Shown here: one piece after another, positions 19,320-24,001 of the stretch
Layout: each line of letters opens with the position of its first letter
How positions within the stretch are numbered: the first letter of the stretch is position 1
From: Verrucomicrobiota bacterium
GTDB lineage: Bacteria > Verrucomicrobiota > Verrucomicrobiia > Opitutales > Opitutaceae
Length of the DNA stretch: 24,001 nt
Assembly: GCA_030916665.1 (NCBI GenBank)
Contig: JAUPWC010000237.1
Location: 1-24,001 of the forward strand
Direction of reading: 5' to 3'
Notes under the pieces: generated by a model
What the model saw: only the letters and a program-made list of their open reading frames with translations
Told to the model about the DNA's origin: nothing
Databases searched by the model: none
Translations under genes and position numbers: made by a program

Positions 19320-20078
19320 TCACATGCCCTTCTTGATGAAGGTCACCACCTCGTCGCCCTCGCTGATCTTCACGGGCTTCGACTCCTTGGTGTTCGTGCC
19401 GATGTAATCGGCGGTGGCGGAGGCGAGGATGGGCATGTATTTGCGGAGCTCCTGGCTGTTGTCCTCGGCGGAGACGTTCACGCTCCAGACCTCGGGCGGC
19501 GCGCGGCCCTCGGTGGCTTCACGGTTTTCCCGGGCGGAGAGCTTGAGGAACTTCTCGTAGACCACCACCGGGTGGATTGTCTCTTGAGTGCCCATAAATT
19601 CGATTTTATCCGGGCCGCGCACTGTGCTGACTCGCTCGACATAGAAAATCTGTCCGGTTTCAGGATTGCGAATTGGAACCCGGACCACCGTTTGATAAAC
19701 ATCTCCTTCCTTTTGTTGATAAATCGGCTGGCTGACGGTCTCGAACTTGATGCGCGGGGCATCCATGCCGTAGTCGATGTCGATCACGACATCGGCCTTC
19801 TCGGGGGTGGGGGCCTCATACATGCCCTTGCCGGAGAGGGCCGTGCGCACGTAGTCGGCGACCTCCTTGTAGCGGAGGCTGTCTTCGTCCAGCTTGGGGT
19901 TCTGGCTGCGGATGTGGTAGGACTGCGCCGAGGCGGCGGGTTGGCCGGTTTCAGTCGGGTTGGCGATGGCGTCAACCTGGACGGTGTAGGTCTTGCTGGA
20001 GTCGCAGCCCGTCAGGAGAGCGACAAAGACTCCGGCGACGGCGGCCGCAAGAGTTCGCGATAGGTGGCTTGTCTTCAT
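19320..20078 (-). CDS. Lipoprotein with Asp after the lipid-bearing Cys
   Basis: A 252-residue predicted lipoprotein. The signal peptide MKTSHLSRTLAAAVAGVFVA leads into lipobox LTGC (Cys25). The next residue is Asp26, which in enterobacteria retains lipoproteins in the inner membrane; whether that rule holds in this lineage is unknown. The mature part has a YHIRSQNP segment, a central region with IRNPETGQIFYVERVST, then PVVVYEKFLKLSA, EVWSVNVSAED and a final LASATADYIG. It is paralogous to the 18635-19261 product but about 40 residues longer. No catalytic motif is visible. It sits 58 bases upstream of its paralogue and 38 bases downstream of the glycine-zipper gene, consistent with an operon. 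Confidence 0.8.
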   Translation of the reverse strand: MKTSHLSRTLAAAVAGVFVALLTGCDSSKTYTVQVDAIANPTETGQPAASAQSYHIRSQNPKLDEDSLRYKEVADYVRTALSGKGMYEAPTPEKADVVIDIDYGMDAPRIKFETVSQPIYQQKEGDVYQTVVRVPIRNPETGQIFYVERVSTVRGPDKIEFMGTQETIHPVVVYEKFLKLSARENREATEGRAPPEVWSVNVSAEDNSQELRKYMPILASATADYIGTNTKESKPVKISEGDEVVTFIKKGM

Positions 20079-20116: not shown

Positions 20117-20770
20117 TCAGTTCGGCGTGACCGCGTCAGCGGGCGGCGCGCTGGCGGTGGTCGCGGAGGTGCTCTCGACCGGGGCGTTCTTCAGGCGGGC
20201 CAGTTCCTCCTCCAGGCGGACAATCTCGGCCTCGGTGGCGAGGAGCTTTTCGTTGGCCTCGTCGAGGGCCTTTTTCTTGCTCAGGGCGGCGGTGCGTTCC
20301 TCGCGCAGCTTGGCGAGACGGCCGGCGGCGCTGTCCACCTTCTTCTGCGCCTCGTTGAGCTCGAGGTCGGAAATCTGGAAGCCCTGGGCGACGGCCATTT
20401 CCTCCTCAAGCAGCGCCTTGGTCTTGGCCTCCTCGGCGCGCTTGCGGGCCAGCTCTTGCTGGTAGGCGCGTTCTTGGGCGAGGCGGTCCTGCTCCTTGCG
20501 CTCCTTCATTTCCTGGGTGAGGCCGACGATGCCGCCGATGATCGCACCCGCGCCTGCGCCGGCGAGCACACCCTGGCTGGTGTTGCCGCTGGCGCTGCCG
20601 GCGAGGCCGCCAACCACCGCACCGGCGGCGGCACCGGTGCCGGCACCGGTGACAGTCTTCGACGGGGCCACCTGGCAGCCCGCGACACAGATGAGAAGGG
20701 CGGCCATGACGCTGCCGGTTGACGACCGCCGCATGACATTCGAGGCGCGGACACCTTGAGAGTGGTTCAT
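20117..20770 (-). CDS. Glycine-zipper lipoprotein with long coiled coil
   Basis: A 217-residue predicted lipoprotein. The N-terminal signal ends in lipobox VAGC (Cys32). Residues 42-84 form a glycine-zipper segment rich in GxxxG-type spacing (GAGTGAAAGAVVGGLAG and GVLAGAGAGAIIGGIVGL), likely membrane-embedded. Residues 88-195 are charged and heptad-like (KERKEQDRLAQE, then LREERTAALSKKKALDEANE), a probable coiled coil, ending in a Thr/Ala/Pro-rich tail. Glycine-zipper lipoproteins associate with the outer membrane; the coiled coil could span periplasm or bind partners. An internal ATG at 20734 would give a shorter, more typical signal, so the start is uncertain by 12 residues. It is the first gene of the minus-strand lipoprotein set and diverges from the channel gene at 20901. 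Confidence 0.78.
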   Translation of the reverse strand: MNHSQGVRASNVMRRSSTGSVMAALLICVAGCQVAPSKTVTGAGTGAAAGAVVGGLAGSASGNTSQGVLAGAGAGAIIGGIVGLTQEMKERKEQDRLAQERAYQQELARKRAEEAKTKALLEEEMAVAQGFQISDLELNEAQKKVDSAAGRLAKLREERTAALSKKKALDEANEKLLATEAEIVRLEEELARLKNAPVESTSATTASAPPADAVTPN

Positions 20771-20900: not shown

Positions 20901-21758
20901 ATGGCCATCCTCTCTCGCAACAAGGGCATTCTCTCGCGCGACTTCCTCATCCCCAACATAGGCCTCCTGGCCTCGATCCTCGTGGTCTGGATCTTCTTCG
21001 CGATGGTGGTGAATCCACGCGTCAAAGAGATCGAGATCACCCAGCGCCTGGCCGCCGCCCGCCAGACCGAAGAGGCCAAGGTCGCGCCCCGTTCAATCTA
21101 CATCATCATCAAGGACCCCGAGCAGGCCGTGGAACTCGCCCTCTGGATCTGGGCCACGATCATCCTCACCTACAAGCTGCTCGAGGTTGGCCGCGAGCGT
21201 TCGCTGCTGAAACATGACTTCATCGGCGTGCGCCAAGGCGAGCGTATCATCCCGGAGGACGCGCTCGACCGATACAAACATATGCGGGAGGCCGTCGAGG
21301 CCACCCCGCGCTGGCGCGAGCGGCTCCTGCCGGACTTCCTGCTGGCCGCGTTGCACCGCTTCCAGGCCACCAGCTCGGTGCAGGACGCGGCGAGCGCCGT
21401 CAAAGAACGCGCCGAACTTGTCGCCGACAACCTCGACTCCGAACTCTCCCTCATCCGCTACATCGCCTGGGCCATCCCCGCCGTGGGCTTCATCGGCACG
21501 GTGCGCGGCATCGGCGACGCGCTCACGCACGCCGAGGAGGCGATCAAGGGCGACCTCAGCGGCGTGATCTCGGCGCTCGGCCTCGCCTTCAACTCCACCC
21601 TGGTGGCCCTGATCCTGAGCATGATCCTGATGTATATGCTGCACATGCTGCAGTCGCGCCAGGAGGCGCTGATCCTGGAGCTTCAGAACTACTGCCGCGA
21701 AAAACTCGTGCACATCATGCGCGTGCCGCTGCGCGAGGCGGATTCAACCGGAGCCTGA
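20901..21758 (+). CDS. MotA/TolQ/ExbB family proton-channel subunit
   Basis: A 285-residue inner-membrane protein. Four hydrophobic segments are visible at about 20-37, 77-93, 184-205 and 222-247, one more than the usual three of ExbB/TolQ. The last two carry the family signature: AVGFIGTVRGIGDALTHAEE (194-213), corresponding to the GLLGTVxGI motif, and SGVISALGLAFNSTLVALIL (220-239), corresponding to the segment with the conserved Thr lining the proton path. A charged cytoplasmic domain (about 94-183) lies between, as in this family. Such subunits form pentamers around a dimer of ExbD/TolR/MotB-type helices and turn ion flow into motion. The next two genes follow with almost no gap. The third encodes a plausible partner helix. 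No Shine-Dalgarno sequence is evident. Confidence 0.88.
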   Translation: MAILSRNKGILSRDFLIPNIGLLASILVVWIFFAMVVNPRVKEIEITQRLAAARQTEEAKVAPRSIYIIIKDPEQAVELALWIWATIILTYKLLEVGRERSLLKHDFIGVRQGERIIPEDALDRYKHMREAVEATPRWRERLLPDFLLAALHRFQATSSVQDAASAVKERAELVADNLDSELSLIRYIAWAIPAVGFIGTVRGIGDALTHAEEAIKGDLSGVISALGLAFNSTLVALILSMILMYMLHMLQSRQEALILELQNYCREKLVHIMRVPLREADSTGA

Positions 21759-21761
21759 GCC

Positions 21762-23249
21762 ATGAGCACCCTCGGCATCGAACTGTGCGACGCTGGCTTC
21801 GAAGCGGCGTTTCCCCGCGAGGGACACCCCGGCTACCCCCTGCTCGAGAACGGCGGCCCGTTGGGCTGGCTCGGGCTCGCCTATCAGGACGGCAGCAAGA
21901 CGAGCTTCGGCCCGCCCGCCGAGGAATTCTGGCACGCCCGCCCCAAGCAGGTCACCCACGAGCTGTGGAGCCGCCTCTCCCACGACGCCTCGCCGCTCGG
22001 GCCGGTCGGCAAGCCGCAATCCTACTCGCAGCTCGCCTACTTCTTCCTGCGTGACTATCTCGGCCGGGTGGACTCGGTCGCGGGGACGCCCGCCAAGGCC
22101 GTGTTCGCCGTGCCCGGCGAGTATTTCCTCGATGCGGCCACCGAGGAGGAGCGCATCGGCCTGCTGCTCGGCATGGCCCACGAGCTGAAGCTGCCGCTCG
22201 CCGGCATCGTGGACATGGCCTCTGCCGCCCTGTGCGACCCCCGGCTCGACTACTTCGACCACCACCAGCCGCTGCTGGTGATCGACCTGCATCTGCGGGG
22301 CGCTGAGCTCACGCTGTTCCAGCCGGAAACCGACGGGCGGCTCGTGCGGCGCGACTTCGCCAAGGTCTCGCACGCGGGCTTCAACGACCTGCTGCGCCAC
22401 CTCACCACGACGATGGCCAACCGCTTCCTCCGGCACACGACCTTCGACATCCAGGAGGACGGGCGCATCGGCCAGGCGTTCTACCGGCAGACCAAGGAAT
22501 TTCTGCTCACCGGGGTGATGGGCTACCACTACCAGATCAACACCGGCACGCGCACCTATGAGCTCGTCGCCACGCGCGACCAGCTGGCCTCGGACCTGAT
22601 CGCCTTCAACCAGTCCCTGCTGCAGGGCGCGCAGGCCATCCTCAAGAAGAGCGCCGGCCGCGCGCTGCGCTGCACCGTCGCGCTCACCGCCCGTGCGGAC
22701 CTGCTGCCCGGGCTGGCCGGCGTGCTGCAAGCGGCCGGTTTGTCCCGCGTGATCCACCTGCCGCCCGGTGCCGCCGCCTGCGGCGCGGCGCGGCTGGGTG
22801 CCGGACGCGAGGTTCCCGCGGAAATCGACGACGTGCCGGTTGAGAACGCGGTTCCAGCCGCGCTGCTGCCGCAACAGTCCGCCCAGCGGCTGGTCATCCG
22901 CCTGATCAAGGCCCGCCGCACCGCCCTGGCCCGTCGTCCGACCCATGCCCTGTGCGAGGGCCTCGGACATCCGCTCGACGGTCAGAAGGTCTTTGCCATC
23001 GGCCCCGCCCCGCTCTCGCCCGACCTGACCCTGCCCGAGGAATTCGACGGCGTGGGCCCCGGCGGTCAGGTGCTGCTGGAGCAGAAGGACGGACTGTGGT
23101 GGCTGCCGGCTTCGCAGGTCACGCAGCTCGCCGAGCGCACGCTCGTCGAACCCGGCGACCGGCTCTCCATCCATCACGGCACCCACGAAACCGAGGTGCT
23201 GTTTGCCTACTGCCCCGACGCCGGGGCCGCGCTCCACCGCCACGGCTGA
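21762..23249 (+). CDS. Degenerate actin/Hsp70-fold (ASKHA-like) protein with possible FHA-like C-terminus
   Basis: A 495-residue soluble protein I cannot assign to a named family. Residues 1-345 follow the order of an ASKHA ATPase: LGIELCDAGFEAAF (4-17) in the position of the phosphate-1 loop, KAVFAVPGEYF (112-122), LAGIVDMASAALCDP (146-160), LLVIDLHLRGAELTLF (171-186) in the position of the phosphate-2 loop, and a late GAAACGAARLGAG (336-348). Key residues differ: Asp of the first loop is Glu, and the second loop lacks the DxGGGT pattern, so ATP hydrolysis is doubtful. Residues 408-483 (KVFAIGPAPLSPDLTLP ... LVEPGDRLSIHHGTHETEV) look like an FHA-type beta sandwich, a weak call. It starts three bases after the channel gene stop and is followed by a strong ribosome site for the VWA gene. 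Confidence 0.6.
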   Translation: MSTLGIELCDAGFEAAFPREGHPGYPLLENGGPLGWLGLAYQDGSKTSFGPPAEEFWHARPKQVTHELWSRLSHDASPLGPVGKPQSYSQLAYFFLRDYLGRVDSVAGTPAKAVFAVPGEYFLDAATEEERIGLLLGMAHELKLPLAGIVDMASAALCDPRLDYFDHHQPLLVIDLHLRGAELTLFQPETDGRLVRRDFAKVSHAGFNDLLRHLTTTMANRFLRHTTFDIQEDGRIGQAFYRQTKEFLLTGVMGYHYQINTGTRTYELVATRDQLASDLIAFNQSLLQGAQAILKKSAGRALRCTVALTARADLLPGLAGVLQAAGLSRVIHLPPGAAACGAARLGAGREVPAEIDDVPVENAVPAALLPQQSAQRLVIRLIKARRTALARRPTHALCEGLGHPLDGQKVFAIGPAPLSPDLTLPEEFDGVGPGGQVLLEQKDGLWWLPASQVTQLAERTLVEPGDRLSIHHGTHETEVLFAYCPDAGAALHRHG

Positions 23250-23261
23250 GGAGGGAACGCC

Positions 23262-24001
23262 ATGCTCAAGGGCAAACGCCGCGAGACCGAGGTGTTCAGC
23301 ATGTCCTTCATGGACTGCATCTGCTGCGGCTTCGGCGCGGTGCTGCTGCTGTTCATCCTCACCACGGGGCAGAAGGCCGACCACACCGACATCGACATCG
23401 AGGAACTCAAGCAGCGCGTGGCCGACATGGAGAAGGAAGTCACGAAGGAGCGCGACGCCCTGGACAAGCTGGCGCGCCCCGAATCGCTCACCGAGGTCGA
23501 GCTCGCCGAGGTGCAGGAGCAGAACCGCCAGGTCCGCCGCCGCGCGGAGGAGCAGGAACAGGAGCTCAAGCGGCTGCTGCGCGAATTGCTGGCCCTCCAA
23601 AACGAAGAGGCCCGCCTCTACGCCGACCTCAAGAACATGCCGGCCGATGACCCGCCCCCGGTGCCCATCCCCAACATCGACCGCCGCCAGTATCTCACCG
23701 GCGTGCAGATGGAGGGCAGCCATGTGCTCTTCCTCGTGCGTGCCTCGGGCAGCATGCTCGGGGACACGATCGACGAGGCCGCCGGGCGGTTGGACGATCC
23801 CGATTTCAAGAAACGGGAGGCACCCAAGTGGCAGCGGGTCGTGCGCTCCATGCACTGGCTGATCGCGAGCCTGCCCTCGGACACGAAGTTCCAGGTCCTC
23901 CTGTTCAACGACGATGCGGTCCCGCTTGTGCCCGAGCGCGGCGAGGGCTGGGTGTCCCGCGACGACCGGGTCGGCGTGCAGGGAGTGCTGACCCGGCTCA
24001 A
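23262..24001 (+). CDS. ExbD/TolR-like helix fused to coiled coil and VWA domain (3'-truncated by window edge)
   Basis: The first 246 residues of a gene running off the window. The start is the ATG at 23262, with a strong GAGGAGGG about five bases upstream. Residues 13-35 (SMSFMDCICCGFGAVLLLFI and on) resemble the single membrane helix of ExbD/TolR/MotB, including an Asp (Asp18) at the membrane entrance where the proton-carrying Asp of those proteins sits. Residues 42-125 are a charged, heptad-like coiled coil. A VWA domain starts near residue 150: VLFLVRASGSMLGDTI. The metal-site motif DxSxS reads RxSxS, with Arg160 in place of the first Asp, so normal Mg-dependent binding is doubtful. RSMHWLIASLPSDTKFQVLL continues the fold. 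It is the presumed stator partner of the channel subunit. Confidence 0.82.
   Translation, partial: MLKGKRRETEVFSMSFMDCICCGFGAVLLLFILTTGQKADHTDIDIEELKQRVADMEKEVTKERDALDKLARPESLTEVELAEVQEQNRQVRRRAEEQEQELKRLLRELLALQNEEARLYADLKNMPADDPPPVPIPNIDRRQYLTGVQMEGSHVLFLVRASGSMLGDTIDEAAGRLDDPDFKKREAPKWQRVVRSMHWLIASLPSDTKFQVLLFNDDAVPLVPERGEGWVSRDDRVGVQGVLTRL

Follow-up and report, generated by a model that had tools for sequence, protein, structure and literature searches.

Our computational analysis suggests, with a probability of roughly 0.6, that the operon at the end of the window (the whole stretch of DNA analyzed, 24001 bases) encodes a proton-driven TPH-vWA motor of the 5:2 type that is fitted with a regulatory subunit. 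Judged from sequence, the core is a known kind of motor, for which force transduction has so far been proposed. What appears to be new is an apparently inactive Hsp70-like/FHA accessory within the operon, a one-sided loss of the MIDAS, and the kinase and PEGA-FGE neighbors seen in relatives.

The window is one entire contig (C477) of a genome of 698 contigs with 85% completeness. Its open reading frames confirmed the three co-directional genes, separated by 3 and 12 bases, that an earlier note had described (Table 1). The third gene (VWA1) is truncated by the contig end, leaving 246 residues visible, and its homologues are mostly 354-358 residues long. Another contig of the same genome, C547, opens (minus strand) with an end piece of 94 residues that matches the C-terminus of the VWA1 family; a second gene built in the same way (VWA2) follows directly. 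On the homologue P0121 (358 residues), the window piece stops at approximately residue 246 and the C547 piece begins at 265, so that the two pieces are compatible with a single gene of which a short stretch between them is unseen. C547 is thus probably the continuation of C477, on the basis of homology and synteny rather than an assembled join. The earlier note had proposed a single VWA-tipped partner for the channel. The VWA-tipped partner stood, but it is not alone: there is really a pair, of which the visible VWA1 is the member with the broken MIDAS, and its fellow was missed because the contig ends.

Table 1. Features of the operon and of its divergent upstream neighbors in the window.
Feature	Position	Strand	Basis
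MotA/TolQ/ExbB-family subunit, 285 aa (gene 1)	20901..21758	+	PF01618 7e-14, over cut-off; motifs GFIGTVRGI, AFNST
Hsp70-like (ASKHA) protein, 495 aa, active site degenerate (gene 2)	21762..23249	+	AF2 model, fold search, A5 profile
C-terminal beta-rich domain of gene 2 product, residues 377-482, in the place of the FHA domain	22890..23207	+	beta strands in AF2 model
VWA1, a TPH-vWA protein: helix, coiled coil, VWA domain (gene 3)	23262..24001	+	ORF cut by contig end; model of homologue P0124
Predicted transmembrane (transpore-type) helix of VWA1	23307..23363	+	hydropathy; Asp18 at 23313-23315
Degenerate MIDAS of VWA1, RASGS for DxSxS	23739..23753	+	alignment of VWA1 sequences
Divergent Gly-zipper lipoprotein-like gene	20117..20770	-	PF13441 2.2e-5, below cut-off
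Divergent DUF4136-like lipoprotein gene	19320..20078	-	PF13590 1.7e-4, below cut-off

A species-level genome collection was scanned with VWA2, and the best 80 of 494 confirmed relatives were taken as loci, a set therefore biased toward near kin. Conservation of the gene order had been set beforehand as a test that could refute the earlier note; the order MotA-ASKHA-VWA1-VWA2 was found on one strand in 69 of these 80 loci (best 80 of 494), and the other 11 were cut at the 5' end of the contig. The 69 comprise 67 complete loci recognized by script and two, L041 and L058, re-sorted by eye (over-long stop-to-stop frames). Taxa named for the scan loci were Opitutales, Kiritimatiellae, Planctomycetota, Desulfobacterales, Gammaproteobacteria, and Ca. 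Sulfomarinibacter. With gene starts assigned by script, the median spacings along the four genes were 16.5, 19, and -4 bases (66 loci from the best 80 of 494). The set holds duplicate loci (L015/L032 and L017/L026, and L033/L034 for VWA2). The distances of the four genes correlated with r of 0.89-0.96 (58 loci among the best 80 of 494), values that shared descent alone could yield.

We then consider the channel subunit. In an alignment of 19 sequences including that of the window (A6), the motifs GTVRG and AFNST were invariant, as were two pore-type threonines, T189 and T222 (19/19). The A6 profile matched TolQ structures at 5.4e-4 in an alignment that spans both motifs and pairs both threonines with TolQ threonines. 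Together with the PF01618 match, these results bear out the stator-type channel that had been proposed. A crude hydropathy scan flagged two segments only in this protein. The window's genome contains seven PF01618 places, gene 1 among them, and three PF02472 ExbD places on contigs C229, C666, and C266; the helix Asp was present in two of the three, and the third gave no usable match. Within this genome, no PF02472 (ExbD/TolR) was found on either operon contig (C477 and C547). The ExbD places thus all lie off the operon contigs, and the operon's motor stands apart from the ordinary ones of the genome. A Zorya-type defense system is very improbable. Gene 1 matched ZorA weakly in PADLOC (3.8e-5), as superfamily members may, but VWA1, VWA2, and the ASKHA protein of the operon gave no Zor match there, and so no ZorB-type partner. 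The four proteins of the relative L085 likewise had no Zor match, and the remaining matches fell in coiled-coil stretches. With PADLOC matches confined to a weak ZorA for gene 1 and to coiled-coil stretches, the Zorya identity was set aside.

VWA1 and VWA2 are similar to each other, their profiles aligning across 309 columns (E 4e-32). A VWA fold was seen in the model of the VWA1 homologue P0124, and the helix Asp was present in all 86 aligned VWA1 sequences (84 distinct) and all 89 VWA2 sequences (86 distinct), in agreement with the ExbD-like helix of the VWA-tipped partner described earlier. The first MIDAS residue among the 84 distinct VWA1 sequences was R in 44, E in 20, and D in 20; it was D in 89/89 of VWA2. 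The MIDAS of VWA1 has been lost in the window's lineage and that of VWA2 kept, a one-sided loss. VWA2 probably contains a VWA domain as well, judging from its MIDAS and its kinship with VWA1. Pfam VWA_2 matched 4 of 20 VWA2 proteins; Pfam and NCBIfam gave no match for the VWA2 of the window's genome and only weak coiled-coil-type matches for VWA1. Neither the PF02472 ExbD/TolR domain nor an OmpA-like peptidoglycan-binding domain was found by Pfam in VWA1 or VWA2.

An axle containing one copy of each protein is the reading we prefer. VWA1 and VWA2 could instead form separate homodimers, giving two alternative 5:2 motors and no mixed axle, and the Asp-bearing helix in both proteins would permit this; the same question is described as open for the analogous AglQ/AglS in the accessible text of PMC9389320. 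However, both VWA genes were present in 79 of 80 loci (best 80 of 494), the remaining locus being cut, and they overlapped by exactly 4 bases in 55 of the 79. Co-presence and overlap favor equal amounts of the two proteins. When the window's VWA1 piece was searched against its own genome, it matched only itself and VWA2, so that this genome has one VWA1 and one VWA2 match only. We consider separate homodimers rather unlikely. More than 50 bases separated the VWA genes in 10 of the 79 loci (from the best 80 of 494).

The product of gene 2 has the fold of the Hsp70 nucleotide-binding domain across residues 1-352, as revealed by the AF2 model and the fold search. The A5 profile, built from 21 sequences, matched Hsp70 structures at 1.6e-11, and DnaK-type proteins were matched too; Pfam and NCBIfam assigned no family to the window's protein. 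The position of the catalytic Lys71 was occupied by Trp in 40 of 41 sequences of the close set A2 and in 20 of 21 of A5, and the GGGT motif of phosphate 2 was replaced in the alignment of the protein and its relatives. These substitutions suggest that the ATPase has been lost, and they agree with the ASKHA companion with a degenerate active site noticed earlier. The protein is probably cytosolic, since hydropathy alone gave no hydrophobic segment. Where Hsp70 has its substrate-binding domain, 12 of the 21 A5 relatives carry a C-terminal FHA domain; it occurred in 0/41 of the close set A2, and none was recognized in the window's own protein.

A working, ATP-driven chaperone dedicated to folding or assembling the VWA proteins, outside the machine, would account for the true Hsp70 kinship in fold and sequence, and for the Asp aligned to D199, which was retained in 20/21 (A5) and 41/41 (A2). 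Such an accessory role would also suit the absence of ASKHA from some systems. The Trp at the catalytic Lys, the replaced GGGT loop, and the FHA domain at the C-terminus of 12 of 21 diverse relatives speak against it, and we judge it quite improbable. We favor an Hsp70-like protein that acts as part of the motor.

The ASKHA gene is a common but dispensable part of the gene set. Two samples less biased than the scan loci were analyzed: 288 Verrucomicrobiota genomes (phylum sample) and, for the class to which the gammaproteobacterial locus L088 belongs, 274 genomes (class sample). The close-set A2 profile matched in 9 of the 288 phylum genomes. The broader A5 profile matched in 18, of which G068, G233, and G264 were dropped as FHA-only. 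VWA2 was found in 18 of the 288, and 15 of these 18 had an ASKHA match: in 13 it lay beside VWA2 on the same contig, and the other two, G157 and the genome of the window, had it on a different contig beside a VWA1-type gene. Contexts were read for two of the three lacking ASKHA, and both were MotA-VWA1-VWA2. In the class sample, 18 of 274 genomes had a near-complete VWA2, with ASKHA adjoining in 11 and absent in 7; G380, G383, and G391, with partial VWA matches only, were excluded from the 18. ASKHA matches occurred in 73 class genomes, of which 11 were kept; the rest resemble FHA-only proteins or ordinary Hsp70, and two of those set aside were checked and were Hsp70. An in-frame stop was present in some matches of the class sample and of G157. 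Since ASKHA is absent from 7/18 (class) and 3/18 (phylum) systems, the motor can do without it.

Several individual loci depart from the usual arrangement. The locus L092 (Kiritimatiellae) was considered as an ASKHA-free system and rejected, as the broad profile finds ASKHA there at 7.9e-21; at L092:6643-7986, VWA1 is split across two reading frames, either through mutation or through a sequencing error. The MotA gene follows VWA2 in G384 (L119). In the 16 kb read of G506 (L120), we observed VWA1-VWA2-ASKHA with TPR and FGE genes, and the MotA gene was not found. Contigs C54 and C85 of G293, the genome of L076 (Pelagicoccus mobilis), apparently hold two separate TPH-vWA gene sets.

The surroundings of the operon differ between the window's kin and more distant relatives. 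By single-linkage groups, the Gly-zipper ORF group was found at a matching distance in 54 of 89 loci (only L083 among the distant L080-L102) and the DUF4136-like group in 50 of 89. Both lipoprotein-like genes recur upstream in the window's kin, and among the loci seen in Verrucomicrobiota only; their products may partner the VWA proteins at the outer membrane. Among the 20 scan loci outside Verrucomicrobiota (from the best 80 of 494), a relative of the L085 gene with PEGA and FGE-sulfatase domains lay upstream in 16, and a relative of the L085 TPR gene in 14; four of the 20 were cut upstream, and Pfam checks of the domains covered five loci. A Ser/Thr kinase-TPR gene opens the operon in some relatives, and the PEGA and FGE-sulfatase-domain gene comes next. 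The TPR protein at L100:2-1969 starts with a protein kinase domain (Pfam, 1.1e-12), and upstream of the MotA gene, kinase motifs were recognized by eye in L088, L090, L095, L102, and L093. No kinase gene was seen beside the window's operon; in the window's genome, a TPR-protein relative (25% identity, 5e-35) is encoded downstream on the other strand. TPR and FGE genes were kept in three ASKHA-free sets (L111, L113, and L115); next to L133 and L134, neither was found. The kinase-TPR and PEGA-FGE genes may belong to the same machine. Separately, L004:3689-7341, which follows VWA2 and is read from the other strand, contains a TPR gene and encodes a short protein that looks secreted and a Q- and S-rich protein with thrombospondin type 3-like repeats. 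In the gammaproteobacterium, a protein with a Gly-zipper and an OmpA domain follows VWA2 (L088:9152-9889).

The signaling-type FHA, kinase, TPR, and PEGA parts in relatives' operons, and the MIDAS Asp of VWA2 kept in 89/89, would also fit a proton- or ion-gated envelope sensor that is not a motor, in which the channel would relay a ligand signal from the VWA pair to the kinase and the Hsp70/FHA protein. A motor could equally be signal-controlled, so these parts do not decide between the two. The conserved pore threonines and helix Asp, however, are those of force-generating stators, and we regard a sensor as unlikely.

For the motor that we prefer, the following mechanism is proposed. Five MotA/TolQ-like subunits would form the channel, and the Asp helices of one VWA1 and one VWA2 would form a central axle turned by proton flow, a 5:1:1 assembly. 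The coiled coils and VWA domains would extend into the periplasm, where the intact MIDAS of VWA2 may grip a ligand, either at the cell wall or at the outer membrane; VWA1 would be the non-gripping partner in the window's lineage. The Hsp70-like protein, cytosolic and without ATP hydrolysis, may be physically part of the complex, docking against the channel from the cytosolic side to serve as a scaffold or gate. The FHA domain that it carries in relatives could read a phospho-signal, which in some of them would come from the operon's own kinase-TPR protein. A fuller version is possible but doubtful. It would be a phospho-controlled rotary motor of several phyla, in which the dead Hsp70/FHA protein gates the MotA-type pentamer, the axle is an obligate heterodimer of a MIDAS-active and (in the window's lineage) a MIDAS-dead VWA protein, and the kinase-TPR and PEGA-FGE-sulfatase proteins complete an ancient six-part envelope machine.

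If the Hsp70-like protein binds the motor, proton-driven stators would have a novel mode of regulation, and a catalytically dead Hsp70 would have been put to a novel use. As in the Hsp70 family (DnaK, Ssb1, and Ssz1), the protein has the nucleotide-binding-domain fold in residues 1-352 and significant profile similarity; unlike that family, it has lost the active-site Lys and the phosphate loop, and many relatives have a C-terminal FHA domain. The partners in ExbBD, TolQR, and MotAB terminate in ExbD/TolR or peptidoglycan-binding domains, and we know of no Hsp70-like subunit in these motors. The operon shares with them the PF01618 channel family, the pore Thr, and an Asp close to the beginning of the partner helix. 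Unlike those of ExbBD and TolQR, the partners here have no PF02472 ExbD/TolR domain, and unlike MotAB, the VWA1 homologue has a VWA fold rather than an OmpA-like peptidoglycan-binding domain.

Among tested machines in which, as here, a single MotA/TolQ-type gene has two different Asp-helix partners, the closest is the AglRQS gliding motor of Myxococcus xanthus, according to the accessible parts of PMC3169522 and PMC9389320. AglQ and AglS carry PF02472 ExbD/TolR domains instead of VWA, and the AglRQS trio has no Hsp70-like gene. The paired, mostly overlapping VWA genes make testable the heterodimer-versus-homodimer question that the accessible text of PMC9389320 leaves open for AglQ/AglS; Hsp70 has 0 occurrences in that text of this review of 5:2 motors. 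Chaperone-linked conflict systems with VWA, FGS, TPR, and HSP70 parts, built round MoxR or GTPase engines, share a similar domain vocabulary with the operon; the words proton and MotA are absent from the available text of PMC7159879, which describes them. Among the listed papers on a combination of VWA, Hsp70, FHA, PEGA, and TolQ/ExbB, as judged from titles and openings of abstracts, no account of the operon was found. Nor was another found among the papers citing PMC12204202, as far as these were accessible; one citing review had no mention of vWA.

The earlier note had presented the machine as possibly new; for the core this does not hold, as TolQ-like genes with paired TPH-vWA genes were already published in 2025 (Williams-Jones et al., Mol Biol Evol, PMC12204202). 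The main text of that study describes the TPH-vWA family as TolQ-like genes with heterologous TPH-vWA pairs bearing an Asp helix, predominantly in Proteobacteria and Verrucomicrobia; its AF3 models place the TPH-vWA helices inside the TolQ-like pore, and force transduction is a proposal with no experiment given there. As in those motors, here a TolQ-like gene lies beside vWA genes that form a heterologous pair, the transpore helix bears an Asp, the channel Thr (T189 and T222) are conserved, and, in the window's genome, no tolR/exbD adjoins; carriers from Verrucomicrobia and Proteobacteria are common to both. Hsp70, DnaK, and ASKHA are not mentioned in that main text, and its figures or supplements may show the gene. 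Unlike the main-text account of the TPH-vWA motors, the operon described here has an Hsp70-like gene inside it, and the MIDAS of VWA1 is lost in the window's lineage.
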